Origin: Roseiflexus sp.
Lineage (GTDB): Bacteria > Chloroflexota > Chloroflexia > Chloroflexales > Roseiflexaceae
Direction: 5' to 3'
Assembly: GCA_025062325.1 (NCBI GenBank)
Contig: JANXAL010000015.1
Location: 1-64,000 of the forward strand
Length of the DNA: 64,000 nt
Shown here: piece by piece, positions 1 to 16,146 of the stretch
How positions within the stretch are numbered: position 1 is the first letter of the stretch
How the letters are laid out: each line of letters begins with the position of its first letter
Position numbers and translations under genes: made by a program
Notes under the pieces: generated by a model
Told to the model about the DNA's origin: nothing
The model's input: the letters and a program-made list of their open reading frames with translations, nothing else
Databases searched by the model: none

Positions 1-1983
1 CTCGGCGGAGCAACCGACACGCTGGCGCGTGAGGCGGCATTGCGCGAAGCAGCCATTCTCCAGGCGGCGCGCGACGAACTCCAGCAGGCGTTCAGCGCCG
101 AGGGACGGCGACATCTGCTGAACCCATTCGCCCCCGCTGCCGAGCGAAACGCTGAGGTCGTCGCTGTGCTGCGCCAGGCAATCGGACAACATCGTGCGCG
201 CGGCGGCCCACTGGCGCGCGTCCCGACCGATGACGAAACCCTGCTGGAAATTTTCGCTGCCACCCTCGGCTGGGGACCAGCGCAACGGTATCTCGACGAT
301 CCGCGCGTCAATGAGGTCAAAATTATCGGTCGGCGCATCCGCGTTCAGGAGAGCGGCAAACCCTTCGTGACCGTTGCGGAACAGTTTGCCACCGCTGCCG
401 AAGTGCGTGATCGCGCGATGCTGCTGGCATCGCTCATGGGCGTGCACCTCGACGCACAGAATCCGCAGGAAACGCTGCCTGCCGACCATGGAACGCGCAT
501 TCACGCAACCATTCCGCCGCGCATCCCGCCCGAAGATGGCGCGCTGATCTGCATCCGGCGCGGTCGGCGCGTCGCGTGGGATTTGAACGATGTTATGCAG
601 CGCGGCACATTCGACCGGCAGGTCTACGATCTGCTGCTGTTGCTGGCGCGGGCGCGCTGTTCCTTCTTGATTGCGGGACGAACGGGCAGCGGCAAGACAG
701 CGCTGCTTGAAGCGCTTGCCAACTCCTGGCCCGGCGATCCTCACATTCTGACGATCGAAGACCATATGCAGGAGATCCACATCCGGCGCGCCGATCTCTG
801 GACGCGCGAACAGGTCAATACCCAGCGCGACCCTGGCGCCTTCGGACGTGTTGCCAGAGAAGCGCTGCGCCAGACGCCCGATCTCCTCTGTCCTGGGGAA
901 ATCCGCGGCAACGAAGCGGGAGCGGTGCTGGCGCTAGTGCTCTCCGACCATCCAGTGATCACCACGCTGCACGCCCGCTCGTGCCGGGAAGCGGTGGAGC
1001 GCTTCGCCAGCTTCGCCGCCATGCCCGGCGCCTATATGTACGAAAACCGCCGCGCTGATGCGCTACGCGATGCCGCCAGCGGTTTCGATGTAGTGATCAA
1101 GCTCGACAACTGGGAAGAACTCGGTCTGCGCCTAATCACCGACATCGCGCTGCTGGACGGCGTTGTCGTGGAAGACGGCGCTCCCCGACCAGCCCTGGTT
1201 CCGCTGGCAAAGGTCGACATTCGCTCTGATGGACGGATTGCCTGGCAGTGCCGGGCAAGCGCCGGAGAAGGCGGTTTGCTGGAATGGCCAGAAGGTGATC
1301 AGACGCCTGCTTCGCTGCGCGAAAAACTGATTCGGGCGCGCGCGCTGGCGCAGGTGCGGCAGCATGCCACGACCCTCGACGCTGTTGCTGATGCCATTGC
1401 GCGCGCACAGACTCATACGCTGGCAGGTGCGCCAGCGCGCGCGCTGGCAGCGCTACGTAGCGCCTGGACGCAACGCCGAGACCCTCGACTGATCGGCGCG
1501 GCGCAGGATGTCCTGGGTCAGGCGCCAGGCATCTTTGCTGATGTCATCGAACAGGCAGGCGCCGAGGGGGCGGCATTGCAGCGCCTCATCGAAGCGAATC
1601 GCTGGCGTGATGCGCGCCTGGCGCTCGACGCAATCATGACCGACCTCGCCATCGCAGCGTATGCCGCGCCGCCAGGCGGCTGGGAAGCGATTGAGACCCG
1701 CATTCGCCAGGGTATTGCCGCTGAAACCGCTGCCGAAGAAGCGCGGATCGAAGCAGAGCGGGCGCTCGAACAGGGGCACGCCCGGCTTGCCGTTGACATG
1801 CTTGCCCGCTTCACTCCATCCAATCTGCCAATTACAATTGCGCTCCCGCTGATCCGTGTGCGCGAACGCGCAATGGAATACCTAGTGCAAGCAGGGCAGG
1901 GGTCCGAAGCTGCGCTCGCAACCGTGCGCGCCCAGCGCCGGGCACTGGAGATGAGCAGCGGATCGGACGCATGCTCGAATTGA
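1..1983 (+). CDS. CpaF/VirB11-like secretion ATPase (5' partial)
   Basis: ATPase of the type II/IV secretion superfamily, expected to be a cytoplasmic hexamer that powers pilus assembly or substrate transport. The frame is open to base 1 and the first in-frame start is a TTG at 40, so the true start probably lies upstream. Counting from that TTG, Walker A GRTGSGKT is at residues 213-220. It is followed by a His-box-like stretch and a Walker B-like GEIRG after PDLLCP. After the ATPase core, from about residue 430, there is an Ala/Arg-rich helical tail of about 200 residues that typical CpaF proteins lack. It heads an operon with TadB/TadC-like proteins (next gene 12 nt away) and VirB4/VirB6-like proteins. 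Family assignment is firm; the exact system is inferred. Confidence 0.88.
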   Translation, partial: LGGATDTLAREAALREAAILQAARDELQQAFSAEGRRHLLNPFAPAAERNAEVVAVLRQAIGQHRARGGPLARVPTDDETLLEIFAATLGWGPAQRYLDDPRVNEVKIIGRRIRVQESGKPFVTVAEQFATAAEVRDRAMLLASLMGVHLDAQNPQETLPADHGTRIHATIPPRIPPEDGALICIRRGRRVAWDLNDVMQRGTFDRQVYDLLLLLARARCSFLIAGRTGSGKTALLEALANSWPGDPHILTIEDHMQEIHIRRADLWTREQVNTQRDPGAFGRVAREALRQTPDLLCPGEIRGNEAGAVLALVLSDHPVITTLHARSCREAVERFASFAAMPGAYMYENRRADALRDAASGFDVVIKLDNWEELGLRLITDIALLDGVVVEDGAPRPALVPLAKVDIRSDGRIAWQCRASAGEGGLLEWPEGDQTPASLREKLIRARALAQVRQHATTLDAVADAIARAQTHTLAGAPARALAALRSAWTQRRDPRLIGAAQDVLGQAPGIFADVIEQAGAEGAALQRLIEANRWRDARLALDAIMTDLAIAAYAAPPGGWEAIETRIRQGIAAETAAEEARIEAERALEQGHARLAVDMLARFTPSNLPITIALPLIRVRERAMEYLVQAGQGSEAALATVRAQRRALEMSSGSDACSN

Positions 1984-1995
1984 AAGGACGTTGGA

Positions 1996-2946
1996 ATGAA
2001 GCCAGACTCAATTATCACACCAACCACAACACACCCCGAAACTGTATGGCTGGCGGATGTTCCGCCGCTGGCGGCAACAATCGCTGCCATCCTGCTGTTG
2101 ACCCTTCTGATGCGCAGCCGGTTGGGCGCAGCGCTCGATGCATATCTTGCGCGGCGGTTCACTCGTCCCGGCGCTGATCGCCTCGACCCTGCGCTGCGCT
2201 GGCATCCTCCAGTAATTGCGGCGTCGCGTCTGCTCGCCATTTGCATCGTCGCCTCCATCACGATCCTGGTTATCGTGAGCCGGATAGGACCGCTGCTTGT
2301 CGCTATCGTGCTGGCAGGACCGGCGACCGCGCTGCTCATCTGGGCGCTGCTCTGGTTTGAAGAGCAGCGCTACGTGAACCGCATCGACGCAGCCCTGCCA
2401 GCGACCGTCGGGCGGCTGGAGGCGCAGTTGCGCGCGGGAAGCGGTCTGCAACCCGCCATCGAGAAGGTCATCGCCGATATGCCTGCCTCACCGCTCAAAG
2501 CCGAGTGGTCGTGGTTCCTGGATCGGCTCGGGCAACCGCTCACTGCCGGATCGCTCGCCACTGCAACGACCGTGTGCGCTGCACTGCGCGCTCAGACGCC
2601 ATCCCGGCGCCACGCCACGTTTCTGAGCCATCTGGAGATCGCCATCGATCAGCCGCATGCCTCACTGGTGCAGCGGGTTCGTGCAGCATATGAAGCTATG
2701 CAGGCATCCGAACGCCGCACCAGTATGCTGGCGACAGAACTCGCTCAAATGCGCAATACCGGAATTGCCCTCTTCCTGATCAATGTCGGTATCGCGCTCT
2801 ACCTGTTCATCGTCCAGCACGAACGGTTTCTGAAGGCATACAGGAGCGATGTAGGCGTTCTTGTAGGAATAGGGCTGGCGCTGGTCGTTAGTGCGCCGCT
2901 CATTGGCGGCTACATGCTGGGACGGGCTGAGGACATCACCTATTGA
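1996..2946 (+). CDS. TadB-like T2SS-F family inner-membrane protein
   Basis: Predicted membrane platform protein (316 aa) of a Tad-like pilus or secretion machine, the usual partner of the CpaF ATPase. There are about five hydrophobic segments: one near residues 18-36, two adjacent ones near 75-115, and a C-terminal pair near 250-310. The cytoplasmic part between them (EEQRYVNRIDAALPATVGRL onward) has the T2SSF-like helical pattern. An AAAGGA ribosome binding site at about 1984 precedes the ATG. It lies 12 nt after the ATPase gene and is followed by a TadC-like gene, which is the Tad order A-B-C. Confidence 0.75.
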   Translation: MKPDSIITPTTTHPETVWLADVPPLAATIAAILLLTLLMRSRLGAALDAYLARRFTRPGADRLDPALRWHPPVIAASRLLAICIVASITILVIVSRIGPLLVAIVLAGPATALLIWALLWFEEQRYVNRIDAALPATVGRLEAQLRAGSGLQPAIEKVIADMPASPLKAEWSWFLDRLGQPLTAGSLATATTVCAALRAQTPSRRHATFLSHLEIAIDQPHASLVQRVRAAYEAMQASERRTSMLATELAQMRNTGIALFLINVGIALYLFIVQHERFLKAYRSDVGVLVGIGLALVVSAPLIGGYMLGRAEDITY

Positions 2947-2966
2947 TACCACCAGAGAGGCGTTCA

Positions 2967-3758
2967 ATGATCGATATTTTCATTGTATCGGGCGTCTGGA
3001 CGGCTTTCGTCGGCATCGCTGGCGTCCTGATCGCCGTGATTGGCATGGCGCAACTCGAACATGCGCGCGCGTTGGCAAGCGGGTTACGCACCCTGCCATC
3101 CCGCTGGGGGATGACCGGTCGGTTTGTACTGGGACACCTTGCGGCGCTGCCGCTCGCATCGGCGATTGTCCTGCTCATTGTATCTGCAGGGATTGACGGC
3201 GCGCTGCGCCTGCTCCTTGCAACCGTCGCATTTGCCATTTACCTGTATGTCGGCGTAATCATCCCGCGTAAACCGGTTACTGCCCGGCAGCGGGAACAGA
3301 AACGGCTGCGGCGTTTGACTCCGTCATTTGTCGCGTATGTGCGTGTAGCGCTCGCCGGATATGACCCTCCTCCGGCGCTCCTCGAGCGCTACCTGATGCG
3401 CCCTGATGACAAACATGCACCGATGCAGCGCGTCGTGGCTGATGCGCTGCGCCTGGTGCGCGATCACAGCGTGTTGCCGTTCGACGCACTGCGGCGCGTG
3501 GCGCGCGATCGGGGATGCCCTGAGTTGATCGACATCGCCGAGGCGCTGGCACAGGCCGAAGCAGAAGGTTCCGACCCGCACACCGTGTTGCTGGCGCAAG
3601 AGACGACGCTCAATCAAGTGCTCCACGATGAGTTCCGTCAGATGATCGAGCGGCGCAAACTCTACTTGCTCGCGCTTGCAGCCCTGGCAGTTGTCGGTGT
3701 GCTGGTGCAGATCATCTTCGTGATTGTGATGGGCAGCAACGTGATGGGACGCTTCTGA
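2967..3758 (+). CDS. TadC-like T2SS-F family membrane protein
   Basis: Second predicted membrane platform protein (263 aa), paired with the TadB-like gene. The ATG at 2967 is chosen because AGAGAGG sits 6 nt upstream; an in-frame TTG at 2943 would overlap the previous gene without a binding site. Hydrophobic segments lie near residues 3-25, 55-100 and 235-260. The region between carries the T2SSF-like sequence ALRRVARDRGCPELIDIAEA, which resembles the conserved helix in TadB/TadC. TadB/TadC pairs normally act with CpaF. Here the following genes are VirB-like instead of flp, rcpA or tadD, which is unusual. Confidence 0.72.
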   Translation: MIDIFIVSGVWTAFVGIAGVLIAVIGMAQLEHARALASGLRTLPSRWGMTGRFVLGHLAALPLASAIVLLIVSAGIDGALRLLLATVAFAIYLYVGVIIPRKPVTARQREQKRLRRLTPSFVAYVRVALAGYDPPPALLERYLMRPDDKHAPMQRVVADALRLVRDHSVLPFDALRRVARDRGCPELIDIAEALAQAEAEGSDPHTVLLAQETTLNQVLHDEFRQMIERRKLYLLALAALAVVGVLVQIIFVIVMGSNVMGRF

Positions 3759-3773
3759 ACCGGGGATTGAGCG

Positions 3774-4472
3774 ATGAAACCGTTTCGCCGCAACCGCTCG
3801 CGCCGCCGGGGTAAGCCGTTGAAGAAGAGCGCACAGCAACAGAGCGCGACTCATGCGCCGACGGCCAGTGATCGAGCGCTGTGCTGGCTGCTTGCCCGTC
3901 CGTCGCTCGATTGGTTACTGACCGCTGCGCTGCGCTATCCACGCATGCTGATGACCGCTGCCCTCGGCGTTGGCGCAGCGCTGGCAATCTGGCACATTGG
4001 CGCACTGCAGCCTGCGCCCGCAGACACGCCAAGTTTGATGCGCATCCCTAATGTGTCTGCGCCAGCAACATCGACTCCAGCAACGACAATCGCCGACGAT
4101 GTCGTGCAGTTTCTGGCAGCGTATAACCAGGCGAGCGCGCTGGCGGCGGCGCGGGGACAGGCGGCGTTGCTCGAACCCTACCTGGCGCCTGACAGTCCTG
4201 CCTGGCAGTCGGTGGCAGCGGAGTATGCACGGCGCGCCAGCGTCGGTGAGCGCCGCGACGCCTCCTTGGTGCGGTGGGGCGTTTTGCAGGGCGACATAAC
4301 CTCCGCCGGAGGCTGGGTCGATACCCAAGAGCAGTGGGATGTCGCCATTACCGTCGGCGGACGCATCGTCAGCAGCAGACGTGGCGTCCTGACGCGCAAT
4401 AGGTACTGGCTGCGCCGGGACGCTGATGGCTGGCGGATCGTCGATGCAGCGACAACCGAGGTGATCCGATGA
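3774..4472 (+). CDS. Single-pass membrane protein, VirB8/TcpC-like by position
   Basis: A 232-aa protein with a very basic N terminus, one transmembrane helix near residues 58-80, a short linker, and an extracytoplasmic domain of about 130 residues. The domain (AYNQASALAAARGQ... to ...YWLRRDADGWRIVDAAT) has the feel of an NTF2-like fold: an alpha-helical start, then strands ending in a Trp-rich WRI(V)D motif. VirB8 and TcpC of type IV secretion systems have this architecture and sit beside VirB6, as here. The domain assignment is my reading and needs a profile search. Its stop overlaps the next start (ATGA). Confidence 0.5.
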   Translation: MKPFRRNRSRRRGKPLKKSAQQQSATHAPTASDRALCWLLARPSLDWLLTAALRYPRMLMTAALGVGAALAIWHIGALQPAPADTPSLMRIPNVSAPATSTPATTIADDVVQFLAAYNQASALAAARGQAALLEPYLAPDSPAWQSVAAEYARRASVGERRDASLVRWGVLQGDITSAGGWVDTQEQWDVAITVGGRIVSSRRGVLTRNRYWLRRDADGWRIVDAATTEVIR

Positions 4473-6790
4473 GTGTGACAGAGAGACGTTTACAGAATGT
4501 CTCAGAAATGTCGATGCAAAGGCGGAAAGGCACAAAGCGTCGCAGTCGTGATGACATACCTTTGCGTCTTCGCGCCTTCGCGTCAGCTTGTTTGAGCAGA
4601 CCTCTTGTGTACGTGATTGTGGCAACGCTGATAATCATTCTGCCGACGCCGGTTCTTGCCGACGCGCCTGGCACCCGCGGCGATCCGCCGCAGCCGCAGG
4701 GTTCGATACAGCAGACAGGCGCTGCGCCTGCTGATACAGCTCACTGGCAAGGAGTGCAGCTCCTAGCGCCATCAGGCACGCCGCTGGATGCGCCCGCACC
4801 TTTCACAACTCTCGACACCGATTCGGCTGGCAGTTGGTTGTCGCGCAACCTCAACCCCGGCAACTGGGTGCTCGATGCCGGGATGGGCGTTGTAGCGGGG
4901 GTGATCGCCACCTTCGGCGAGACGGCTCAGCGCACAGCGCTGGTACTCCTCAACGCACGAGCGTCTGGTCACTGGACCATCATTCCTTCAAGCTGCAGTG
5001 ACAATGCTGCAACCAACTTCGTCTTCTGCACGCCATCGGCCCTCACCTACAACCATCCGGCAATGGCATCCATCTGGAGTGTAATGCGCGCCGTAGCGCA
5101 ACTGCTGGTCACACTCCTCTTTGTCGTGCGGATGAGTCGTCTGCTGGCGGAAGGTCAGCAGAGCCTGGCGACCGAAGGCAAAGGACTGCTATTGACCTTC
5201 ATCGGCGTTTCGCTGTTCATCAATTCGACGCAAGCGACGCTTGCCTTCATCATTGATCTCTTCAACGCCGTCAGCGATGCGCTCCTTTCACGAGCCGCAT
5301 TCGAGATGCCGACGCCGGTCAGGCTCGATCTGAATATCGGCGCGATGCTGATGTATGCCGTGTTCTGGCTGGTGATGGTGTGGTTGATCATCAAAAGCGC
5401 GTTCCGTGTGGTGTCTGTGATGGTGCTGGTCGGTCTTGCGCCGCTTGCGGGCGCGCTGTTGATGGATCGCTCGACATCGCCGCGCTTCTACGGCTGGCTC
5501 AACCGTCTCTTCGATCTCCTGATCGAACAGGTGGCGCTGGCGGCAACGATGATTGTCGCAGTGGCGCTGGTGTCGCCGCTGAGGGGCGGGGTGGTTGAGT
5601 CATTCACCGGATATGTGCTCGGTCTCCTCACACTGCTGGTAACAGTGCTCGGTTCGGAGAAGTTGACCGGCATGGCGCGCTCGGTGACCCAGGGCATGCC
5701 GCTGGTGACACGGCTGCAGAGCTACCTTTGGCGCAAAAGCGGAGTTGTTCCAAGAGCAGAGAACGCGGCAAAGTGGACAGCAAGACAGGCCGTGTCCGCT
5801 GCTGGCGAGTCGCTCATGCGTCTCGGCTTTGATCGTCGCTTCAGCCGGGCAGTGCGCGCGATGGTCAGACCAGGCGCGGACGCGGCCAGCGGACGTTCCG
5901 TTACAGCGCCTCGAACCGTCGATGGACGCGTGCCGTTTCAGATGCCTACAGCCGACAGCCGCACCCGGCGCAGGTACGACCGCCTGAAGGCGCAGATGCT
6001 TGCTGGCGATCAACCCGACCGGGCGCGGCGCGAGATGGCAGCGATCCACGCTCGAGGCATGCGCGCTCAGGCTGATGAAATCAAGAAGCGTATCGGCTTC
6101 AGAACTCCTGCGCAGGAAGCTCTGGCGAAGCGGCAGGCTGTCGCTGATCTGGAACGACGCGCTGCGCAGCAGGAGGCGTTTGCGAAAGGGCAATTGCATC
6201 CGCGTCCATCACCATGGAATGCCGAGCAACGCCAGCGTCGCCGTGCGATTGCGCGTGATACGTTGCTCGAAGTGCAGGCTGAACACAAAATTGAGCGCGA
6301 AAACACACTCGCGGCAATCCAGCGCGATGAACACGAGCTGCGCACTGCAGCGCCTGAACAGCGCGCCGCTATTATGGCGCGCATCCAGGAACGGCGGGCG
6401 CGCGTGGCGGAACTGACTCCCGCTGCAGGCATGACTGTTGCTGCAGCCACCCGCGCACACGCAGCGGCGCGTATGCGGCAGCGCCTGGCGGAGGAAGGGC
6501 TGGCCACGCCGCCACGCGCGCGCCGACCGTGGAAGATAGCATCACAATCGTCACCGCTCTATCACGCTGTCGGTACGGTTGAGCGTCCCGCTCCAGGAAT
6601 GAGTCGTCCCTCTATGCCACCTGCTCCCTCCCAACGGTGGGAAATGGCAAAACAATCGTTGCCGCCCTACTACGCCGTCATCGCCGCTGAACGCCGCACG
6701 CCAGGAACAGAGCATCCCTCTGCGCTGCCGACCGCTCCGCGTATGCGGGTTCCGCCGATGCGCCGCGAAGATGAACAGGAGCGCCGCTGA
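4469..6790 (+). CDS. VirB6/TrbL-like polytopic membrane protein with coiled-coil tail
   Basis: 773-aa membrane protein. A signal-like hydrophobic segment ends in ADA at about residue 65. A lumenal segment follows, then six to seven helices between about residues 205 and 430, and a long Arg/Ala/Glu-rich coiled-coil cytoplasmic tail (about 480-700). The tail ends with two similar Pro-rich repeats (QSSPLYHAV and QSLPPYYAV). This matches VirB6/TrbL proteins, which form the membrane channel of type IV systems. The ATG overlaps the upstream stop. Oddity: residues about 15-44 are encoded by a copy of a dispersed intergenic repeat (see 4492-4602). The signal-like segment follows directly, so the ancestral start may have been near L42 (TTG at 4592). 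Confidence 0.65.
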   Translation: MSVTERRLQNVSEMSMQRRKGTKRRSRDDIPLRLRAFASACLSRPLVYVIVATLIIILPTPVLADAPGTRGDPPQPQGSIQQTGAAPADTAHWQGVQLLAPSGTPLDAPAPFTTLDTDSAGSWLSRNLNPGNWVLDAGMGVVAGVIATFGETAQRTALVLLNARASGHWTIIPSSCSDNAATNFVFCTPSALTYNHPAMASIWSVMRAVAQLLVTLLFVVRMSRLLAEGQQSLATEGKGLLLTFIGVSLFINSTQATLAFIIDLFNAVSDALLSRAAFEMPTPVRLDLNIGAMLMYAVFWLVMVWLIIKSAFRVVSVMVLVGLAPLAGALLMDRSTSPRFYGWLNRLFDLLIEQVALAATMIVAVALVSPLRGGVVESFTGYVLGLLTLLVTVLGSEKLTGMARSVTQGMPLVTRLQSYLWRKSGVVPRAENAAKWTARQAVSAAGESLMRLGFDRRFSRAVRAMVRPGADAASGRSVTAPRTVDGRVPFQMPTADSRTRRRYDRLKAQMLAGDQPDRARREMAAIHARGMRAQADEIKKRIGFRTPAQEALAKRQAVADLERRAAQQEAFAKGQLHPRPSPWNAEQRQRRRAIARDTLLEVQAEHKIERENTLAAIQRDEHELRTAAPEQRAAIMARIQERRARVAELTPAAGMTVAAATRAHAAARMRQRLAEEGLATPPRARRPWKIASQSSPLYHAVGTVERPAPGMSRPSMPPAPSQRWEMAKQSLPPYYAVIAAERRTPGTEHPSALPTAPRMRVPPMRREDEQERR
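4492..4602. repeat. Dispersed 'CTTTGCGTCTTCGCGCC' repeat inside a coding sequence
   Basis: Copy of a roughly 100-bp dispersed element inside the VirB6-like gene. The left part GTCTCAGAAA and AAAGGCGGAAAGGCACAAAG is partly complementary to the right part CTTTGCGTCTTCGCGCCTTC. The right end is GTCAGCTTGTTTGAG. Other copies or half copies lie near 33092-33185, 36046-36136, 36260-36356, 42190-42236, 49096-49128 and 52656-52690, all intergenic. The frame stays open through the element. Boundaries are approximate, from eye alignment. Confidence 0.65.
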
Positions 6791-9642
6791 TGAGCGAGAG
6801 TGAACCGCAATCCGCAGCGCCATCACTGGCGCGAGACATCGCAGATGGCGCTGCGCGGCTGGCGGCGCGCCAGGCGGCAAAGCGCGCACTTGCAGCAGGC
6901 GGCAAGGCAGCCCTGAAGATTGGCGCCGTGGCCAGCGGCAAGGTCATCCTCATTGCAGCGCTGGTCGTTCTGGCAATCGTTCTGATCTGTGGTCTGGCAC
7001 TGGTGATCGCGGGCGCGCTTGGCACGATCTTTCAACACACAGCGCTCCCCTGGCCTGTGGCGCCGGACGTGCAACCCGACGGAACCTACCGCGCAGGCGG
7101 GTGGGCTATCTCCAGTCGCTTCGGCTGGCGCACGCATCCGGTCACTGGCCAGCCAGAGTTCCACGACGGCATCGACATTATCAGCCCGACTGGCGCGTGT
7201 CCCTTTGCGTATCGCTGTCTGCTCCCTGCCATGGTCGATGGTGTGGTCACCTATGTGGGGTGGGACGTGAACGGTGGACGCCATCCCGACCAGGAAGGCG
7301 GCGGGCAAATTATTGTGGTCGAAAGCAGCCGCGGCGCCTATCAGACGATCTATGCTCACCTGGAACCGTATCGTCTGCACGTGCAACTGCAAGGGCGGAT
7401 CATCGATGAGTACGGTCGTTACGACGAGTATGCCGATTACCAGCCGATCGGCGCCGGTGAACTCGTTCCCGACGTTGCCGACGGATCGATTGCTATCTCG
7501 TGTCAGGGCGATATGCCAACGTTTGCGCCGACGCGCAGCGGCGCGACGATCACGTTTCTCTACGACCGCCCCGCTAACTGTCGAACCACAGTGACGTGGG
7601 GGAAGCGCGGCGACGGCTGGCGCGGCTGGATCGCCGACGATCCGCCCGCAAACGCGCAGGGACAGGCGACGCTACGCTGGCAGACGCCGCTCCATGGCTC
7701 ACGCGGTGATCGCCGCGCCGGTGATGTGGCATTGCGCTTCCGCGCTCACCTCGTGCCGCCGCCACCCCCACCAACCCCGACCTCGATGCCGGTTGCACTA
7801 ACACCAGCAGCACATGCGCCCAGAATGACGCGGATGGTCCAGGCAGCGCAACCGGATGATCTGAACAGAAATCGGGACAGCCAAGCCTCGGCATGCCACT
7901 TGACCGGCGATGGCGGGCGCTGTGTGTGGCGGTTGGCGGATATTCCGGTTGCGCCTCGTCAGGACGCCTTCTGGAATAGGGGGTATGGAATGGGAAGTCT
8001 GCAACGCGCGTCTCACGCGACGTCTTTTGCTGCCCACGGCATTTCATCCTCCTCCAGTCCGACGCCGCAGCACAGCGCCCCATCATTTCTTTCCGCCAGC
8101 ATGAGCACGGTTGGATCCTACCAACTGCCGGTTGGCGGGCGCCGCCGGATTGCGTTTGTTGGCATAAGCAGCAACTGGCCCCTCGTCATCGAAGCGGATG
8201 CGGGCGAGCATCTGACTGTGCTGGACGTGACCCACGTCTCTAGCGGCGTGCAATGCTCATCGACCGCGCGCAGCGTGCGTTGCGATGCGCACGGACCGCA
8301 GGCGTTCTCGGTCGAGTTCGTGGTAGAGGTGCGCGCTAGCGCGCCGATGAACAGCATCCAGACCTTGCACGGCACGGTCCGTTCGCCGGTGCGCCAGACC
8401 ACCGCGACGCTTAACCTTCTTATCGATCCCTATGCCGTTACTCCCGGACCCTGGCCCCCGCCGACCCCCTTCCCCACAGCGACGCTGGCGCCGTATCCGC
8501 CGCCAGCGATTGCGACGGTTCCACCTCTTCCGCCGGAGATTATTCTCCCGGGGGTGACACCCATAGCCGGACCTCCGCCAGGACCGGGACAGGGACCAGG
8601 GCAATCGCCGCTGGCATGCCGACCGCAGGCGCTCGTGCCGTTGCCAGGTGTTATCAACGCCGCAGGAAACACAGCGAATATGGCGCTAGCGGAAGATGCA
8701 GCGCGCAGTTTTGCCGCTGTGCGCGCCGAGATCGCTATGGCAACCGGGCAGGACCCGCTGGCGCGCCTGGCGGATGCGCTGCGCACGCCGGAGTTTCGCT
8801 CGAGCAAGCCGGGGGTGGCGCTGATGTCGTGGCATATGACGGGAAGAGCAATTGATGTGGACACCAGCTTTCCCTGGCGACGGCTGCGCGACGGTCGAAT
8901 GTGGCGACTGTATATCAACACGACCGATATAACTGCCATCTTTGAGCGCCACGGCTGGAACCGCATTCCAGATCGCGCCGATTCACAGGAGTGGTGGCAC
9001 TATGAATATCACCCGAATGGCATTAGTTGGGCAAGCGCTATGCGCGAAGTCTGGCCCCTCCAGCGTTTGCAGGCAGCGTTTCCACAGATCAACTGGATCA
9101 GCGTTGGTTGTCAGCCGATGTCGCCGGATGGCGCCACGCCGCCACCCAGTGACACGCATGAACGCTGTGTGGCGGGCGCCCCCGCGTTTGCGCATGCCGT
9201 CGAAGCATTACCCGGCTGCGGTCCGCCAGTGCGTCTAGGGGATCGGGTGTATCAACTGGAGTCACCGTTGGGATTCGTCGGACTGACCGGGCAAACAACT
9301 GGACCGCACCTGCACCTGGGCGTGCGGCAGCGCGGATATGCAGGCGATTTCCCGATGATCAATGTCTGCACGCCGGAGTGGTTGCAGGGCATTCAGCCAT
9401 TGCCCGGCACGAACTGCTGGACGGACATGGTCGATCCGCTGGCATTCCTGCCGCTAGCGCCGCCGGACAATCTCGCTGGGCTGCCGGAGGGCGCTCCATA
9501 CCAGTTGCCGCCGCCAGATTATCCCGGTTCGCTCTACCGTGATCCGCGTCCTGGCGAACCACCAGTCGGTCAGTACTGGTCGCCCGACGCCGACGGCGGA
9601 CGGTATGGCGGCGGTAATCCGGGGCGGTCAGCATCACGGTGA
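6790..9642 (+). CDS. Peptidoglycan hydrolase: M23 peptidase with nested M15 (VanY-like) peptidase
   Basis: 950-aa cell-wall hydrolase, probably the VirB1-like enzyme that opens peptidoglycan for the machine. A transmembrane helix lies near residues 50-80. The M23 (LytM) domain is split. The first half holds HDGID (H125, D129) and YAHL (H190). The second half, from about residue 800, holds GPHLHLGV (H840, H842). Between them are beta-rich and Pro-rich segments and a D,D-carboxypeptidase of family M15: WHMTGRAIDVD (H682, D689) and EWWHYEYH (E734, H737). All zinc ligands of both enzymes are visible, so both may be active. The ATG overlaps the upstream stop. A Pro/Gly-rich tail follows the second M23 half. 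Confidence 0.85.
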   Translation: MSESEPQSAAPSLARDIADGAARLAARQAAKRALAAGGKAALKIGAVASGKVILIAALVVLAIVLICGLALVIAGALGTIFQHTALPWPVAPDVQPDGTYRAGGWAISSRFGWRTHPVTGQPEFHDGIDIISPTGACPFAYRCLLPAMVDGVVTYVGWDVNGGRHPDQEGGGQIIVVESSRGAYQTIYAHLEPYRLHVQLQGRIIDEYGRYDEYADYQPIGAGELVPDVADGSIAISCQGDMPTFAPTRSGATITFLYDRPANCRTTVTWGKRGDGWRGWIADDPPANAQGQATLRWQTPLHGSRGDRRAGDVALRFRAHLVPPPPPPTPTSMPVALTPAAHAPRMTRMVQAAQPDDLNRNRDSQASACHLTGDGGRCVWRLADIPVAPRQDAFWNRGYGMGSLQRASHATSFAAHGISSSSSPTPQHSAPSFLSASMSTVGSYQLPVGGRRRIAFVGISSNWPLVIEADAGEHLTVLDVTHVSSGVQCSSTARSVRCDAHGPQAFSVEFVVEVRASAPMNSIQTLHGTVRSPVRQTTATLNLLIDPYAVTPGPWPPPTPFPTATLAPYPPPAIATVPPLPPEIILPGVTPIAGPPPGPGQGPGQSPLACRPQALVPLPGVINAAGNTANMALAEDAARSFAAVRAEIAMATGQDPLARLADALRTPEFRSSKPGVALMSWHMTGRAIDVDTSFPWRRLRDGRMWRLYINTTDITAIFERHGWNRIPDRADSQEWWHYEYHPNGISWASAMREVWPLQRLQAAFPQINWISVGCQPMSPDGATPPPSDTHERCVAGAPAFAHAVEALPGCGPPVRLGDRVYQLESPLGFVGLTGQTTGPHLHLGVRQRGYAGDFPMINVCTPEWLQGIQPLPGTNCWTDMVDPLAFLPLAPPDNLAGLPEGAPYQLPPPDYPGSLYRDPRPGEPPVGQYWSPDADGGRYGGGNPGRSASR

Positions 9643-9708
9643 TCGCTCCCACATGAACCAGACCTGTCATCGAACATTCTCCTCTGCAATCTGAAAGGAG
9701 CTGGCACA

Positions 9709-10008
9709 ATGGAACCCATCATTTCAACTGTCGGTACAGCAGTGTCATCCATCCCTGCCGATCTGCTGCATCCCCTCGCTGATCCCCCGAAGTTCGACGG
9801 TTTGTTCAAGGCGTTGTTCGAGTGGCTGAAAAATATCATCACCGTCGCTGGCGGCTTCTTCCTGCTGATCGACATGGCGAAGCACATTTTCTCATCCCCG
9901 CGCGACCTGCGTGGTGCAGGCATCGATCTGGCAGTGTTCATCATCCTGCTAGTCGTTGCCAATCAGTCGTCAAGCATCGTTGCGTGGGCCATGGGGCTGA
10001 CCGGATAG
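9709..10008 (+). CDS. Small two-helix membrane protein (VirB2-like position)
   Basis: 99-aa protein with two hydrophobic helices, near residues 42-58 and 73-95, joined by a short basic loop (KHIFSSPRDLRGAG). The size and hairpin shape resemble VirB2/TrbC pilins or the small membrane subunits of Gram-positive type IV systems. No pilin-type cleavage site is obvious. AAAGGAG lies about 10 nt before the ATG. It lies 66 nt downstream of the hydrolase gene and 19 nt before the next gene. Function is inferred from position only. Confidence 0.5.
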   Translation: MEPIISTVGTAVSSIPADLLHPLADPPKFDGLFKALFEWLKNIITVAGGFFLLIDMAKHIFSSPRDLRGAGIDLAVFIILLVVANQSSSIVAWAMGLTG

Positions 10009-10027
10009 CCCGGAGAGGAGGAGCGAC

Positions 10028-10417
10028 GTGAGTGATTTCCTGAGCGTGGTTATGCCGCGTCGGTTGCGGTTGCACGCATCGGTGCAGATTGCCGGAATGC
10101 GCATGCCAGCGCGTGCGTTCCTGATGATTGTCGGTGTCGCGGCGATTGGAGGAATCGCCATCTCGCTCGGCGCCGAGATTGAACGCACAATCTGGATAAG
10201 CGGCGGACTGATTGTCGTTGGTCTAGCGATGCTGGAAGGGCGCGTTTGGGGACGGTCGTCCCGCGACGCTGTTGGCATTGTGTGGCGGCACCTGAACCGA
10301 CCGAAGCGCCTGCGCATGGGTCAGTTGCGAGTGACTCTTCCGACCGAAGAACGCTTGGCGCCAGCGCTGGCGCTTCAACCGCCGCGCTGGCAGCGCAGGG
10401 AGGATTCCCATGAGTGA
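10028..10417 (+). CDS. VirB3/PrgI/TcpE-like small membrane protein
   Basis: 129-aa protein with a short N-terminal cytoplasmic part, two adjacent transmembrane helices (about residues 29-50 and 54-70) and a basic C-terminal tail. VirB3, PrgI and TcpE proteins have this topology and are usually encoded directly before VirB4, as here (a VirB4 N-domain-like gene and then the VirB4 ATPase follow). It starts with GTG after GGAGAGGAGG. The stop overlaps the next gene by 8 nt, suggesting coupled translation. Homology is weak by eye; the call rests on topology and order. Confidence 0.52.
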   Translation: MSDFLSVVMPRRLRLHASVQIAGMRMPARAFLMIVGVAAIGGIAISLGAEIERTIWISGGLIVVGLAMLEGRVWGRSSRDAVGIVWRHLNRPKRLRMGQLRVTLPTEERLAPALALQPPRWQRREDSHE

Positions 10418-11081
10418 CAACGAACTGCGCGCTGCAATCCCGCAACGTATCGTGCGCGGCGCCATCCTGCGCTCCGACGGACGCGCCGTCGGACTGGTCG
10501 GCGGTGGCGCGCCTGCGTGGGATTTGCGCTCGCGCGAAAGCCGGGCGCGCCTGGCAGAGACGTATCACCGCATTCTGCTGGCGCAGGACTCACCGGTGGA
10601 TATATATATCGTTGACGGACCGCCCGATCTGGAACGAGAACTAACCGAACTCTATCGGCGTAGCAGTCAGTCGGCCCATCCGACATTGACCGCCATTCTT
10701 GACGAGATCGCGGAGTATCTGGAGGAGTGCGCCAGCGCAACGGTTAGCCGTCATCGACAGACAATCTGGGCAGTCGCCGGTCGCGAACCATCGGCGCTTC
10801 CGGCTAGCGCCAGAAACTGGCTGTCGGGATCATTCCGAAGCGCGAACGGCGCCGTCCCACTGATACGCGACACCCCACTGCTGGCGGAGGCGGTCGAACG
10901 GGCGCGGCGGCTGGCAGATGCGCTGGCATCGCTCGGCGGAACGCCTCCGCCCCGCCTGCTCGAAGCCGAAGAGATCGCACGACTGTGGTTTCGCCTGATC
11001 GATCCGGTGCGTGCATCGCGCTACCCGTTGCAGGGCGCCCTACTCGAGCGAATCCGTCTGATCGTGAACGCGAGTCGATGA
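10410..11081 (+). CDS. Protein resembling a detached VirB4 N-terminal domain
   Basis: 223-aa soluble protein without membrane segments. Its N-terminal half (IPQRIVRGAILRSDGRAVGL, then ...ETYHRILLAQDSPVDIYIVD) follows the pattern of the N-terminal domain of VirB4/TraC ATPases: a strand, 'DG' and a strand, then a helix, then a strand ending in 'piqiyv'. The ATPase gene 12 nt downstream begins close to the next VirB4 segment. I therefore read this as a VirB4 split over two genes, or a separate adaptor derived from that domain. Start overlaps the upstream gene. No other motif is recognised. Confidence 0.45.
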   Translation: MSDNELRAAIPQRIVRGAILRSDGRAVGLVGGGAPAWDLRSRESRARLAETYHRILLAQDSPVDIYIVDGPPDLERELTELYRRSSQSAHPTLTAILDEIAEYLEECASATVSRHRQTIWAVAGREPSALPASARNWLSGSFRSANGAVPLIRDTPLLAEAVERARRLADALASLGGTPPPRLLEAEEIARLWFRLIDPVRASRYPLQGALLERIRLIVNASR

Positions 11082-11093
11082 AAGCGAGGCTGT

Positions 11094-12947
11094 ATGTCGC
11101 TACGAGACGCTCTCTCCCGGCCGATTATTGAGCCGATACGCCGCCGCACGGCTGATGTGACGTTCTTTACCGGCGCCACAACGCTACCGACACTGCTAGC
11201 GCCCGACGGGATCGACAGGCGCTGGAGTCATATGGTGCAGGTGGGCGACTCGTTTATCACCGCGCTGGAGGTGCGCGCATTCCCGCCAGCGCTTGCGCTG
11301 GCGTGGCTCGATGATCCGGCGTTAGGTCTGGATGGCGCGGGCATCACGGTGCATCAGCACCTGGTTCCTATCCCCGACGCGCTCGCCCGTCGCTGGCTGG
11401 CGCGCAGCGAAGATGCGGCGCTTGGCACGCTGGCTGGCGACGCACAGGCGGGCACGCACTTCGACGCCGAAGCGCAGCAAGGCATTGAAGCAGCAGCAGC
11501 GCTGCGCCACGATCTGACCGCCGGAACAGATCGTTTATTCCAGATAGCGATCACAATCACGGTTGCAGCGGCCACTCCCGAGGAACTGGCAGCGCGCGTC
11601 GACCGGGTACGGCTTGCTGCCGCCCAGCGGGGCATCCTGCTGGGCAGTATGCAATTTCAACAGTGGGAAGGGTATCTCGATGCCCTGCCGCTGGGACGAA
11701 CCCCCGCCGGACTGTTGCACGACGCCAGCGGGCGCGCCGCTGCGATGGGCATGCCCACAGCGTCGCCAGGCCTGACGCGGCGCGGCGGTTTGCCGATTGT
11801 CTGGGGAGAACACCCGCGCAGCGGCGCGCCCGTCGTGTATGATCGCTGGCAGGCGACCAATCCGCATATGCTCATTGTCGCTGAGTCGGGGAGCGGTAAA
11901 ACGTACACCATGGGCGGGTTGCTGGCGCAAGAACTGGCGCTCGGCGAGGATGCGCTGCTCATTCTCGACCCGAAGCGTCAGGAGTATCGCGCACTGACGA
12001 TGGCGCTTGGCGGAGCGTACATTTCGCTCTCAAGCCGCGCCGGGTACCACATCAATCCGCTGGAACTGCCGCCGCTCGCGCCCGAACGTGCGCGCACCGT
12101 TGCAGCCCTGGAAGAAGACCTGCTGGCGCAGCGGATCAGTGTCATCAAGGCCTTGATCACCCGCGAGCTGAAGGCACAGGGCACCCATGTCGATGCAACC
12201 GGCGCAGCCGCGATCCAGGACGCCATTGCCGCAGCCTATGCTGCACGCGGCATCAGCAGCGATCCGCGCACATTCATGCAGCCAATGCCGACCTTTAGCG
12301 ACGTGCAGCAGCGCCTGGCGGAGATTGCGCCCGACCTGGCGCGCGCAATGGCGCTGTTCACGCGCGGCATTATCGGTGATCTGTTCAACCATCCGTCGAA
12401 TGTGCCGACCGATAACCCGTTGCTGGCGATCGATCTCTGGACATTGCTCCAGAGCAACGACGAAACCCTGGCGCGCCTCTTGCCGGTAATCGTGATGGAT
12501 TTTTTCGTCACCACTGCGATCAATCGTCCGACTGGGCGACGCAGCCACCTGGTGCTCGACGAGGCGCACGCGCTGCTGCACTCGGAAGCGGGCGCCCGCA
12601 CCCTGCAGATGATATTCCGCATCGGGCGCAGCCTTCAGTTCAAAGCAACCGTTATCACTCAGAGCCTCGACGATCTGGACGAGAGTGAACAAACGCGCGT
12701 GTTACTGGAAAATGCGCGCACCAAACTCATTCTGGGGCTGAACCAGGACTCAGATGCGGTCAACCGGGCAGCCGCCATTTTACGGCTGAACGATGAGGAA
12801 GCGGCGTATCTGGCGACATGCCGGATCGAGCGCGGCATCGGCGCAACGGCGTTGCTGCTGGCTGATGGGGAACGCACGCCACTGTTCATTCCACGATGGC
12901 CCGACGCAATCCATCGGATTGTGACCGGCGCAGGGAGCGAGCGATGA
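11094..12947 (+). CDS. VirB4/TraG-type type IV secretion ATPase
   Basis: 617-aa ATPase of the HerA/VirB4 superfamily that energises type IV secretion or conjugation machines at the cytoplasmic membrane. Walker A ESGSGKT is at residues 264-270 and Walker B HLVLDEAH has D489-E490. The motif LILDPKRQEY, typical of VirB4/TraC, lies between them. The C-terminal ARTKLILGLNQDSDAVNRAA also fits. The first 240 residues are the usual non-ATPase part, shorter than in full VirB4; the missing piece may be the upstream 223-aa protein. The stop overlaps the next ATG (ATGA). Confidence 0.88.
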   Translation: MSLRDALSRPIIEPIRRRTADVTFFTGATTLPTLLAPDGIDRRWSHMVQVGDSFITALEVRAFPPALALAWLDDPALGLDGAGITVHQHLVPIPDALARRWLARSEDAALGTLAGDAQAGTHFDAEAQQGIEAAAALRHDLTAGTDRLFQIAITITVAAATPEELAARVDRVRLAAAQRGILLGSMQFQQWEGYLDALPLGRTPAGLLHDASGRAAAMGMPTASPGLTRRGGLPIVWGEHPRSGAPVVYDRWQATNPHMLIVAESGSGKTYTMGGLLAQELALGEDALLILDPKRQEYRALTMALGGAYISLSSRAGYHINPLELPPLAPERARTVAALEEDLLAQRISVIKALITRELKAQGTHVDATGAAAIQDAIAAAYAARGISSDPRTFMQPMPTFSDVQQRLAEIAPDLARAMALFTRGIIGDLFNHPSNVPTDNPLLAIDLWTLLQSNDETLARLLPVIVMDFFVTTAINRPTGRRSHLVLDEAHALLHSEAGARTLQMIFRIGRSLQFKATVITQSLDDLDESEQTRVLLENARTKLILGLNQDSDAVNRAAAILRLNDEEAAYLATCRIERGIGATALLLADGERTPLFIPRWPDAIHRIVTGAGSER

Positions 12948-14242
12948 TTATTGCCGGGTATCGTATCAATCTGGACGCGCTGCTGGCGCGCGTCGTTTAT
13001 CGCTGGCATTGGAAGATCGCGCTCGCTGTAGTTGCCGCCGGAGCACTGATCGGCATTGCGAGCGGTGTCATTCCTCCCTTCTGGCGCGGTCGCGCTAACC
13101 TCCAGGTGCGGGCTGCGCCAGAGGCGCGCATCACAATTGATGGACGCCCCTGGAGTGGCGACGTGTATGCGGGCGAGCATACCGTCGCTGCGACTCTGCC
13201 GGATGGACGACGCTCCTGGGTGCGCCTGACGCTGCAACCGGGAGAAACGGTCGCGCTCGATCTTCCGCCTGGACTGCTGCTGCCAAAGACGCATCGGGTG
13301 CCGTCCGCCGCTCCCGGCATGCGGCTCACAGCAATCTGGCGCGCCGGTGACTCGTGGCGCGTGCAAAGCGTTGCTCCGCCGCCTGTGGAGACCAGTGCAA
13401 AAGACGCCGGGGAGGATATGCCGGCAACACACACTATTGCTATTGGTACGTCAGGGATCGAGCGATTGACCACGATCGACGCCTACCGCGGGCGCGCTGA
13501 TGTGCTGACCGTCGATGGCACACGCTACGAGGCGGCGTATGAGCCGGCTCAGCCGGGCAGCCGCCAGGAGAGCAGGATTATCGTGCGCGGCTGGGAGCAT
13601 ATGACTGTCACGGTTGTCGGGGATGTATCACTCGTGAGATTTGCGCCGGACGGTCAGGCGCTGTTGCTGGCGGAACGCACAGTGGCTGGCGAACACGTCC
13701 GGTACCTCACGCCAGATGCGTCGCCAGTCGCAGTCGTTGCGCTTCCCGGCGAGATCACTGGGGTTGCCTGGCATCCGTCGGGTAACGCAGTGCTGATCGC
13801 CAGTCGCGACGGCACGCGACGCGCTCTGACCCTGGCGCGCCTGCGTCCAACGCCGGTTGCAGCGGTCGTTGCCGAGCCTGCCGCCGACGGATTGCCCCCT
13901 TATGCCTGGAGCAGCAATGAGCTGGTATGGATTACGCCAGACGACGCGGGAAGACCACAGATGTGGCGCGCCAGCCTCGACACACTGCTTCCCGAACGCC
14001 AGATGCCGCTTGAGGCGCGGGCAATCATGCGACTGGCGGATGGTACGCTTCGCGTTGTGTTGCTCCGGGATGGTGAAGTCATCATTGGTCGTCTGGACGG
14101 TGAACGGTTCATCGGCGAAACGACGATAGCAGGAGTGCCAGCGCGCGCAGACCTGGCTGGCGAATGGTATGGGAACGAGCTGCTGCTCCGAAGCGGGAAT
14201 GACGCCTGGTTGATCACCATCGTAGAAGGAGAAGGCAGATGA
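12944..14242 (+). CDS. Membrane-anchored PEGA plus beta-propeller-like protein
   Basis: 432-aa protein whose ATG at 12944 overlaps the VirB4 stop; a longer frame from 12896 is a shadow. A cytoplasmic start is followed by one helix (about residues 28-48), a PEGA-like surface domain (about 55-105, with ITIDGRPW and AGEHTVAATLPDG) and a region with TolB/WD40-like repeats (FAPDGQALLLA, WHPSGNAVLIASRDG). It is probably extracytoplasmic and may bind cell-wall material or another surface part of the machine. Not a known VirB subunit. The next gene overlaps by ATGA. Confidence 0.62.
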   Translation: MIIAGYRINLDALLARVVYRWHWKIALAVVAAGALIGIASGVIPPFWRGRANLQVRAAPEARITIDGRPWSGDVYAGEHTVAATLPDGRRSWVRLTLQPGETVALDLPPGLLLPKTHRVPSAAPGMRLTAIWRAGDSWRVQSVAPPPVETSAKDAGEDMPATHTIAIGTSGIERLTTIDAYRGRADVLTVDGTRYEAAYEPAQPGSRQESRIIVRGWEHMTVTVVGDVSLVRFAPDGQALLLAERTVAGEHVRYLTPDASPVAVVALPGEITGVAWHPSGNAVLIASRDGTRRALTLARLRPTPVAAVVAEPAADGLPPYAWSSNELVWITPDDAGRPQMWRASLDTLLPERQMPLEARAIMRLADGTLRVVLLRDGEVIIGRLDGERFIGETTIAGVPARADLAGEWYGNELLLRSGNDAWLITIVEGEGR

Positions 14243-16146
14243 GCGCACCGCGGATCGAAACACTGCTGGTCAGTCTTGTTGTGCTGATTGCTACCGGGAT
14301 CGCGCTGGCAGCAGCATACGCTCCCCCCATTCCCCGGCACCTGCGGGCAGGAGCGACTCAGGAGGCGTTGCGCAAAACGAGAGACGCATCGACTGCGCCG
14401 CATCTCCGGCAGCATAGCGACGATCGCGCAACCGCACCCGACGCAGTATCGTGGATCACTGATGCCGCCGCCCGGCAGATCGCCGGTATTGACGCTTACA
14501 GACAGATCGCTGCGCCTCTCATGAGCGGCATCGTGGCGTTGATGCTAGCGATTATCGGAGTGCGGCGCAGGCAACGCACGACTCCGGCACAGCAATCCAT
14601 CCCTCTACGGGAACCAGTCGTGAGCGCTCGACGCCGGAACACCATTGCACGAGATATTTCACATATGTGGACAAACTCCATGCATCGCGTAGCAATGTTC
14701 CCTAGCGCATATCGGAGAGCGCTGGGCCAGATCGAGGTTTTCGCGCGGTTCTGGAAGTGGAGAGCCGCAAGGGATCCACGTTCTGGCGGTTCCCTGCATC
14801 GTCTTATCCGTTTCAGACATCAGCGCGCCCCGGCGCTCTCCTTTCCGCTTGTGGAGGCAGGAGAGCAGGGAGATCTTACGGGATCGGGCTCTTTGGACAC
14901 GCTTCTCAGTCATATTGCCCGTTTTGGGCATCAGGACGACCGACCTTCCCCTTCTCCGCTTATGGAAGAAGAGAAGCCGGAGGATGAAGGAAAAAAGGCG
15001 TCGGATTGCGAAAAACACGCTGCTCCACCGGAGAACGCGGAAGAGGGCCAACCCAATGACCAGGCAGCCGACAATCGTTGGGTAATAGCAGCGTTGCAAC
15101 CATCCAATGCGCGACCCGAACCCGACGCCGCAGAAGTTCATCAATCCGTTACGACCGACAACGCTGCGGCAGCAGTTGCTGCCGTCCTGGACATTTACAA
15201 ACAACGGGGATTGGCGCAAAGTGAGGTCGTGTTTGCCGAGGCGAGCGCTGAGCGCCAGCAGGCGCAGGTGCGCCTGACAGTCATCGCCCACCCGGACGAA
15301 GCCAGGGCGCTTGAGGATCTGCCCGCACAGGTGGAGATGACCTTACCCGGATCCAAGGCGCAGTGGCAACGTACTATGCGAGCGCAGTCAGTGCTGACAA
15401 TCACTATGCACAGAGATATTCCTGCGAAGCAGGGCAGTCATCTGCTTCTGCCGGTTGCGCGCCATCAATCAGGTTCACGCCTGCCCATCATCAACCGCAG
15501 TGCGCCAGCAGTCTCATTTCTGCCGCTGCACACCTGGCGCCATGTCGGGTTCTGCGGCGGCAAAGCCATCGAAAGCGCCAGTGCTGCACTTATCGACCTG
15601 TTGTACGTTGAGGCGCCGAATGCGCTCGCCGTGACCATCATCGACCAGGGACAGATCAGTTCATTCTGCAAAGGAATGCCGCACGTTGTGCCGCTGCCCG
15701 GCGAGGCGGCGGATTCGTTGATTGCTCTTGGACGCGCTGCCCGTTCCTGTTCGTTCTCTGGCGCGACAATGCGGCCGCTGTTGATCATTATCGTGGAGCC
15801 AAGCGCGACGCTGCTGAGCATATATGATGATCTTACCGCTCGCCTGCTGCGGCGCCCAGGCGCGCCGGTATATACCATGCTGGTGCAGTCTCATCTGCCG
15901 AATGGCGCACGACGACCGCATCCCTCCTTTCCCGTTGTTATCACCAGTGGCGGAACAGCGCCATCGACAGGTGCAGGTTATGCGCTTCCACCAGAAACGG
16001 TGCGAATTCTTACTCGGCACATCCGCCTTGAACGCCAATGCTATGCCTACGATGCAACGCGTCTAGCAGCGCTGACCGCGCTGCTGCGCGTCAGTACTGC
16101 TGAACCGCTTCTCCCGACGGCATGGGACGCTCTGGGCATATCTTGA
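14239..16146 (+). CDS. FtsK/VirD4-like membrane protein with degenerate ATPase motifs
   Basis: 635-aa protein with two N-terminal helices (about residues 8-30 and 88-107), a low-complexity linker and a C-terminal FtsK-like domain. The domain keeps the FtsK order: an approach strand HVGFCGGKA, a long helix, an AVTIIDQ strand and a second strand LLIIIVEP. The P-loop is broken: the first Gly is missing and the Ser/Thr after K442 is A443. Walker B D-E is replaced by E520-P521. It is therefore likely an ATPase-dead relative of TcpA/VirD4 coupling proteins, perhaps a structural receptor. Residues about 169-264 are encoded by antisense copies of a dispersed repeat. Confidence 0.6.
   Translation: MSAPRIETLLVSLVVLIATGIALAAAYAPPIPRHLRAGATQEALRKTRDASTAPHLRQHSDDRATAPDAVSWITDAAARQIAGIDAYRQIAAPLMSGIVALMLAIIGVRRRQRTTPAQQSIPLREPVVSARRRNTIARDISHMWTNSMHRVAMFPSAYRRALGQIEVFARFWKWRAARDPRSGGSLHRLIRFRHQRAPALSFPLVEAGEQGDLTGSGSLDTLLSHIARFGHQDDRPSPSPLMEEEKPEDEGKKASDCEKHAAPPENAEEGQPNDQAADNRWVIAALQPSNARPEPDAAEVHQSVTTDNAAAAVAAVLDIYKQRGLAQSEVVFAEASAERQQAQVRLTVIAHPDEARALEDLPAQVEMTLPGSKAQWQRTMRAQSVLTITMHRDIPAKQGSHLLLPVARHQSGSRLPIINRSAPAVSFLPLHTWRHVGFCGGKAIESASAALIDLLYVEAPNALAVTIIDQGQISSFCKGMPHVVPLPGEAADSLIALGRAARSCSFSGATMRPLLIIIVEPSATLLSIYDDLTARLLRRPGAPVYTMLVQSHLPNGARRPHPSFPVVITSGGTAPSTGAGYALPPETVRILTRHIRLERQCYAYDATRLAALTALLRVSTAEPLLPTAWDALGIS
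14760..15025 (-). repeat. Two antisense copies of the 'CCCCCTTCTCCC' dispersed element inside a gene
   Basis: Read on the minus strand, 15020-14905 aligns by eye with the element seen at 43801-43905 and 33965-34075: GACGCC, a T-run, TTCATCCT, a pyrimidine-rich stretch, GCGGAGAAGGGG, then GTCCTGATGCC.AAAACGGG. A second copy lies at about 14875-14765, with CCCTGCTCTCCTGCC, GCGGAAAGG, CTGATGTCTGAAACGG and GGAACCGCC. Both are diverged, and the host reading frame remains open. Confidence 0.6.

Follow-up and report, generated by a model that had tools for sequence, protein, structure and literature searches.

The window analysed here, that is bases 1-64000 of the 64683-base contig C136 from a 4.73 Mb Roseiflexus genome, begins with a gene cluster in which components of a Tad pilus machine are directly followed by those of a type IV secretion system (T4SS). 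The cluster comprises twelve open reading frames (ORFs) at 1-16146, all on the + strand and in a single co-directional run. Neighbouring genes are separated by 12-66 bp or overlap by 1-8 bp, the overlap being 4 bp at four junctions. Shine-Dalgarno-like sequences lie 5' of most of the start codons, and 15 bp separate the Tad half from the T4SS half (the TadC gene ends at 3758 and the gene for a VirB8-like protein starts at 3774). These ORFs, their spacing and their start signals agree with a preliminary description of this DNA as a combined Tad and T4SS operon. A gene for a Rex-like regulator is found 97 bp past the end of the run. The twelve genes are as follows:

1..1983, + strand: CpaF/TadA-family secretion ATPase (T2SSE), its 5' end missing as the contig begins at base 1
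1996..2946, + strand: TadB-like inner-membrane platform protein (order, topology, weak similarity)
2943..3758, + strand: TadC-like inner-membrane platform protein (profile comparison)
3774..4472, + strand: VirB8/TraM-like protein, one transmembrane helix and an NTF2-like domain (predicted fold)
4469..6790, + strand: VirB6/TrbL-like polytopic protein with a long cytoplasmic tail (Pfam and relatives)
6790..9642, + strand: membrane-anchored peptidoglycan hydrolase, M23 with a weak M15-like stretch (Pfam)
9709..10008, + strand: 99-aa VirB2-like protein, two transmembrane helices (size, topology, position)
10028..10417, + strand: PrgI/VirB3-like small membrane protein (weak profile match, position)
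10410..11081, + strand: TrsD-like protein, probably a detached VirB4 N-terminal domain (weak profile match, position)
11094..12947, + strand: VirB4 ATPase (profile and PDB matches)
12944..14242, + strand: membrane-anchored protein, possibly PEGA-like with a beta-propeller (weak WD40 match, 0.016)
14239..16146, + strand: fast-evolving membrane protein with a weak FtsK-like resemblance and no Walker A motif (ratio of non-synonymous to synonymous substitution, dN/dS, 0.34)

Protein families encoded by the cluster

The identities of CpaF and VirB4 are secure from profile matches. The former matches Pfam T2SSE (2.3e-25), TIGR03819 (1.6e-36) and CpaF in the PDB (1.2e-19), and orthologues of full length are present in the loci L050, L061 and L054 of relatives. 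VirB4 matches NF045971 (2.7e-58), TIGR00929 (4.6e-24) and PDB 4ag5 (1.5e-17), its P-loop GxGK and DEA motifs are invariant in alignment A1, and it is 93-95% identical to the VirB4 proteins of close relatives (recorded as Roseiflexus sp. or Chloroflexota). It aligns with NF045971 from profile position 189 onward only. Because this N-terminal part is absent, the adjacent TrsD-like protein is likely to be the detached VirB4 N-terminal domain; TrsD is a known monoderm T4SS protein similar to the VirB4 N-terminus (PMC12102498). As the hhalign profiles were shallow and their probabilities low, we used rank and coverage alone in reading them. By this measure, the top template of the TrsD-like protein is a plasmid protein encoded between PrgI and VirB4 (168 columns, probability 18), and a hidden Markov model (HMM) of the family matches the gene immediately 5' of VirB4 in L074 (0.0011). 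Likewise, the plasmid PrgI group is the top template of the PrgI-like protein (79 columns, probability 7.5), whose gene lies two genes 5' of VirB4, the same place as that of PrgI on a Geobacillus plasmid.

The TadC-like protein matches the plasmid TadC group over 123 columns (hhalign probability 83), which bears out its earlier assignment. The TadB label draws on weak similarity, topology and position: the protein has no Pfam match of its own, but TadB is its top, weak hhalign template, its orthologue in G007 covers the T2SSF profile at full length (weakly, E 0.49), and the gene order CpaF-TadB-TadC is constant in 17 Tad loci. VirB6 is recognised through Pfam TrbL (0.005 in the window and 0.001 in G003), and an HMM of the window protein finds distant Chloroflexota homologues that match TrbL_4 at 1.8e-14 and 8.6e-16. 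The labels VirB8-, VirB2- and VirB3-like, also proposed earlier, reflect fold, position or topology. The AlphaFold model of the VirB8-like protein has three helices followed by four strands, with domain pLDDT values mostly of 70-90, and in Foldseek it matches NTF2-like domains, with TraM of pIP501 (4ec6) at rank 6. This predicted fold fits VirB8, the sequence gives no sign of it, and NTF2 folds are common, so the model offers support for the assignment and not proof. The VirB2-like protein has predicted transmembrane helices at 43-61 and 66-84, its best hhalign match, a weak one, is to small two-helix plasmid proteins, and its gene has a dN/dS of 0.074.

Labelled VirB1-like in the preliminary description, the cell-wall hydrolase at 6790..9642 is not a VirB1-type transglycosylase but combines M23 (Pfam, 1.6e-9, in two stretches) with a weak M15_4 match (0.019). 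It is probably the functional counterpart of VirB1, though of M23/M15 type. Several hundred residues, including the M15 carboxypeptidase-like match, part the two M23 stretches, and the protein looks like a hydrolase inserted in a hydrolase. The label of the protein at 12944..14242 is based also on a protein encoded 5' of VirB6 in G188, from another Chloroflexota lineage, which matches PEGA (3.9e-7) and PD40 (3e-8). The last gene, at 14239..16146, had been read as FtsK/VirD4-like. We reject this candidate, as it is without the Walker A motif in the alignment and the true VirD4-type ATPase is encoded elsewhere in the genome; it has no Pfam match, and a low-confidence fold prediction gave no convincing relative. 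As in the preliminary description, neither a secretin nor a protein like VirB7, VirB9 or VirB10 could be recognised among the products of the cluster, an absence that is expected if Roseiflexus castenholzii does lack an outer membrane, as is apparently the case (PMC7332563).

Upstream Tad genes and components encoded elsewhere

With the contig starting at window base 1, the genes 5' of the operon were read in the genomes of relatives. In G003, G004, G001, G009 and G007 these encode CpaE/TadZ, CpaB (SAF), TadG-like, TadE-like and DUF11-type surface proteins, joined in the first four by a second CpaF. Pfam matches of these genes include SAF (7e-12), ParA/CbiA (5.4e-9) and TadE (2.7e-5, above the cut-off). 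CpaB, TadZ/CpaE and TadE/TadG are thereby found as members in relatives, while in the window's own genome the region lies beyond the contig end. A calcineurin-like phosphoesterase, an SbcD/Mre11-like nuclease by sequence, is encoded near the Tad operon of G003 (L050, 1437-2690, - strand).

Other parts lie elsewhere in the genomes. Prepilin peptidase (PF01478) occurs once per genome in six genomes, unlinked to the operon; one of the six is G007, where the joined locus provides the only T2SSE match of the genome. Every joined genome searched, a set that did not include G002, encodes a VirD4-type ATPase whose Walker A and B motifs are intact. The copies read have the P-loop AGMGAGKS/T and LIIDE/LVIDE, and their homologues include a T4SS DNA-transfer protein annotated on an Embleya plasmid. 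This gene is inside the operon in G007 and G010 (genera g3 and g6 below), and at an unlinked locus in G009 and in all five Roseiflexus genomes that were searched. The unlinked Roseiflexus gene has a small gene before it and an HU-like gene after it in both L156 (9272-12804) and L157 (8638-11975).

Origin and recurrence of the joined locus

Both modules are found separately in relatives. The Tad module is a nine-gene operon (DUF11 surface protein, TadE, TadG, CpaB, CpaF2, CpaE/TadZ, CpaF, TadB and TadC) that stands alone in five sister-family genomes (G026, G029, G032, G035 and G038), and eight or nine genes of the same operon are carried by G031 and G037 of a third family. In the fully listed loci (G029, G035 and G038) it ends after TadC and is followed by unrelated genes; HMMs of the T4SS families gave no match beside any stand-alone Tad operon of the sister families. 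The T4SS cassette, for its part (VirB6, hydrolase, PrgI-like, TrsD-like, VirB4 and propeller protein), occurs in Candidatus Chloroploca without adjoining Tad genes. There, integrase-like ORFs and a gene of VirD4 type are found nearby (L067, L068), which suggests an integrative element.

The joined order is found in four Roseiflexaceae genera, labelled here g1, g3, g5 and g6, in the last of these on two contigs that fit together. It is kept complete in the examined g1 genomes, in G009, G007 and G013, and on the split contigs of G010. This last genome carries two Tad sets and two T4SS cassettes (L219, L220, L057 and L085); one Tad set and one cassette are joined, and the other two apparently lie apart. 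The flanking gene encodes Rex in g1 and g5 and is different in G007, while the operon itself stays intact. Trees of the concatenated Tad proteins and of VirB4, both unrooted, agree for the joined loci, with the topology ((Roseiflexus, G009), (G010, (G007, G013))), and the split between joined and stand-alone Tad operons has an ultrafast bootstrap (UFBoot) value of 96. Comparison of the window with G005 gives dN/dS values of 0.07-0.34 across all genes, which indicates purifying selection. Since the linkage is limited to Roseiflexaceae and the Tad and VirB4 trees agree, we favour a single joining in the ancestor of part of this family followed by vertical co-inheritance, the simplest reading of trees that are unrooted. 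The preliminary description had raised the possibility that the two sets are accidental neighbours. Their retained linkage across four genera with changed flanks, along with the agreement of the trees, argues that they are not, and makes a functional link likely. A recent mobile element is likewise rejected, as locus order, trees and purifying selection speak for long vertical descent.

The pairing of Tad and T4SS genes is recurrent, with both sets being carried by G188, several plasmids and the Cutibacterium acnes linear plasmid. With Pfam support for every member, G188 has CpaB, TadZ, CpaF, TadB, TadC, TadE and TadG; co-directional genes for a PEGA/propeller protein, a VirB6 of TrbL type and VirB4 come next. 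Because its VirB4 clusters with those of other lineages in the tree, this joining appears to be a separate one. In several further Chloroflexota genomes (e.g. G059, G080, G193, G217, G245 and G257) T2SSE and VirB4 matches are about 10 kb apart or less, and the two sets are within about 20 kb of each other on Embleya, Alicyclobacillus and Geobacillus plasmids. Their co-location, at first taken to be unusual, is thus not unique, comparable neighbourhoods being present in G188 and on Actinomycetota and Bacillota plasmids. The plasmid proteins adjoining VirB4 in Geobacillus (19348) and Alicyclobacillus (19296) were considered as VirD4; having several transmembrane helices and no Pfam match, they may instead be VirB6-like, and were not used as evidence. 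In the Geobacillus plasmid an RCC1-repeat surface protein is encoded between CpaF and TadB of the Tad operon (L138, 6303-9497).

A possible DNA-exchange system and its relation to known systems

Gene content, order, co-inheritance and selection at this locus are observed. As their explanation we prefer, at about even confidence, a chromosomal Tad operon and, joined to it head to tail, a T4SS cassette of monoderm type, which together would serve cell-to-cell DNA transfer. The Tad machine would assemble and retract a pilus of TadE/TadG-type pilins, processed by the single prepilin peptidase encoded elsewhere, drawing cells or filaments together. The wall hydrolase would then open the cell wall, and the VirB6-, VirB8-, PrgI- and VirB2-like proteins would form a channel moving DNA between cells, powered by VirB4 and supplied by the VirD4-type ATPase encoded elsewhere. 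Such a mode of action would be like that of the Ups pili and Ced system of Sulfolobales, or of the PAPI-1 type IV pilus with VirB4 and VirD4, except that the pilus is of Tad type and both halves would belong to one transcription unit. The involvement of a pilus and a T4SS in DNA transfer has published precedents (PMC12857230, PMC9905601, PMC11868833). As to whether one machine is encoded or two that share an operon, both of which had been considered, the separable modules favour a shared operon as the origin, and cooperation of the two is likely in view of the linkage in four genera. That they act together physically as a single chromosomally encoded machine for DNA exchange between cells, equivalent in bacteria to the archaeal Ups plus Ced and fixed in the filamentous Roseiflexaceae, would be a tentative and rather doubtful extension by analogy. 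In R. castenholzii, septum-anchored pili have been attributed to Tad genes, and cryo-tomography has revealed septal channels between cells whose genetic basis is unknown; VirB genes are not mentioned in that study (PMC7332563). A more daring version of our proposal would have these channels built by the T4SS half, or related to it.

Several points weigh against the DNA-transfer reading. Co-transcription, co-function and a DNA substrate are what we infer from the genes by which the locus is known here, and physical interaction is not required, as sister families have the Tad module without the T4SS. There is no Flp-like small ORF for a major pilin in the Tad loci scanned, and no PF03432 relaxase in 11 genomes, a search that did not extend to other MOB families or the origin of transfer (oriT). 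Replic_Relax gave no match, or weak partial matches of 76 positions, in most joined genomes; a full match in G010 is on a contig other than that of the joined locus. With no PF03432 or convincing Replic_Relax relaxase in the joined genomes, the DNA-processing step is either missing or unrecognised. One weak partial Replic_Relax match is in the window at 32726-32947 (- strand), with others in G001 and G003 at different loci. Furthermore, T2SSE occurs together with two T2SSF genes at a second, Tad-like locus, on another contig of the same genome (G000:C130, L116) and in G003 (L119). The R. castenholzii pilus may come from this second locus, and pili are therefore not assignable to the present operon on genes alone.

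Among the alternatives, a real if lesser chance attaches to two independent machines on one transcript, a Tad pilus for adhesion or surface motility and a T4SS for separate transfer, with no cooperation. This would fit the occurrence of each module without the other in relatives, the lack of a VirB4 match in most sister genomes with a stand-alone Tad operon, and the report of Tad genes in R. castenholzii, C. aggregans and Viridilinea along with septum-anchored pili proposed for motility (PMC7332563). It is harder to reconcile with the linkage retained across four genera despite changed flanks, with the matching trees, and with the repeated appearance of the pairing, in G188 and among plasmids. 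DNA uptake, in which DNA caught by the Tad pilus would enter through the T4SS-like channel, with ComEC acting at the membrane, appears unlikely. Transformation in Micrococcus luteus does require Tad genes (PMC4322843), Ced imports DNA (PMC11868833), ComEC is found in 10 of the 11 genomes searched (the draft G005 being the exception), and G007 has no T2SSE match other than the joined locus; however, ComEC is also present in Chloroploca genomes with the T4SS unlinked to Tad, and the conserved VirD4-type ATPase points rather to substrate export.

Delivery of proteins, i.e. effectors or toxins, to neighbouring cells by the T4SS half, with the pilus making contact only, seems to us quite improbable. 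The lack of a relaxase of the two families tested and the chromosomal, vertically inherited nature of the locus would suit it, but no effector-like gene was recognised in or beside the operon, and the plasmid-borne relatives suggest DNA transfer. The same lack of a relaxase, together with cassette relatives on plasmids and, in Chloroploca, near integrase-like ORFs, could also mean that a conjugative plasmid or integrative element became immobilised here and survives as a non-functional remnant. Against this stand intact ORFs in the joined loci read, the low dN/dS of every gene, conserved P-loop residues and the same order in several genera, making it very improbable indeed.

Literature searches found no paper on Roseiflexus with a T4SS, nor on Tad with VirB4/VirB6 in Chloroflexi, and a recent nomenclature review (PMC12857230) mentions neither Tad nor Chloroflexi. 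In its T4SS half the locus resembles the monoderm MPF_FATA/FA conjugation systems and the T4SS of Patescibacteria, with their set of VirB4, VirD4, VirB6, VirB8, PrgI/VirB3, hydrolase and TrsD (PMC12102498, PMC12857230), of which the VirB8 and PrgI/VirB3 counterparts are tentative here. Compared with these systems, Roseiflexus has a full Tad operon joined to this set, a relaxase was not found, VirD4 is unlinked and the hydrolase is of M23 type. The plasmids pGspE55-1 of Geobacillus and pAACI01 of Alicyclobacillus and those of Embleya share CpaB, TadZ, CpaF, TadB, TadC and pilin-like genes in the vicinity of VirB4, part of them with PrgI and hydrolase genes; however, they are plasmid-borne, the module order differs, and their VirB4 is about 25-27% identical to that of the window. 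In the monoderm C. acnes, a tad locus adjoins FtsK, VirB4 and VirB8/TcpC-like genes on a linear plasmid, where Tad and conjugation genes are described as neighbouring loci and transfer is not shown (PMC5696575). On PAPI-1 of Pseudomonas and on the IncI plasmids, genes for a type IV pilus likewise accompany VirB4/VirD4 within one element, and the PAPI-1 pilus is essential for transfer (PMC12857230). Both belong to the mobile elements of diderms and have a type IV pilus, whereas the Roseiflexus locus is chromosomal, vertically inherited and of Tad type, with VirB6, VirB8-like and PrgI-like proteins.

Chimeras of a pilus and a T4SS are an emerging theme; those known in bacteria are mobile elements, which carry either type IV pili or ESX systems. 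Joint action of the two machines is open to comparison between Roseiflexus, where they are joined, Chloroflexus-type relatives, which have Tad alone, and Chloroploca, whose T4SS is not linked to Tad. Like the window locus, Ups and Ced of Sulfolobales combine type IV filament machinery (ATPase, platform and pilins) with a chromosomal T4SS-like set (VirB6, VirB2 and VirB4 homologues) and no plasmid relaxase (PMC9905601, PMC11868833). Ups and Ced are separate, archaeal gene sets for which DNA-damage induction is a feature, whereas the Roseiflexus locus, known here from its genes, joins a bacterial Tad set to a T4SS with PrgI-like, TrsD-like, VirB8-like and VirD4-type members. A chromosomal and vertically inherited Tad plus T4SS system in a multicellular phototroph phylum would be a second domesticated pilus-plus-T4SS system besides the archaeal Ups and Ced.

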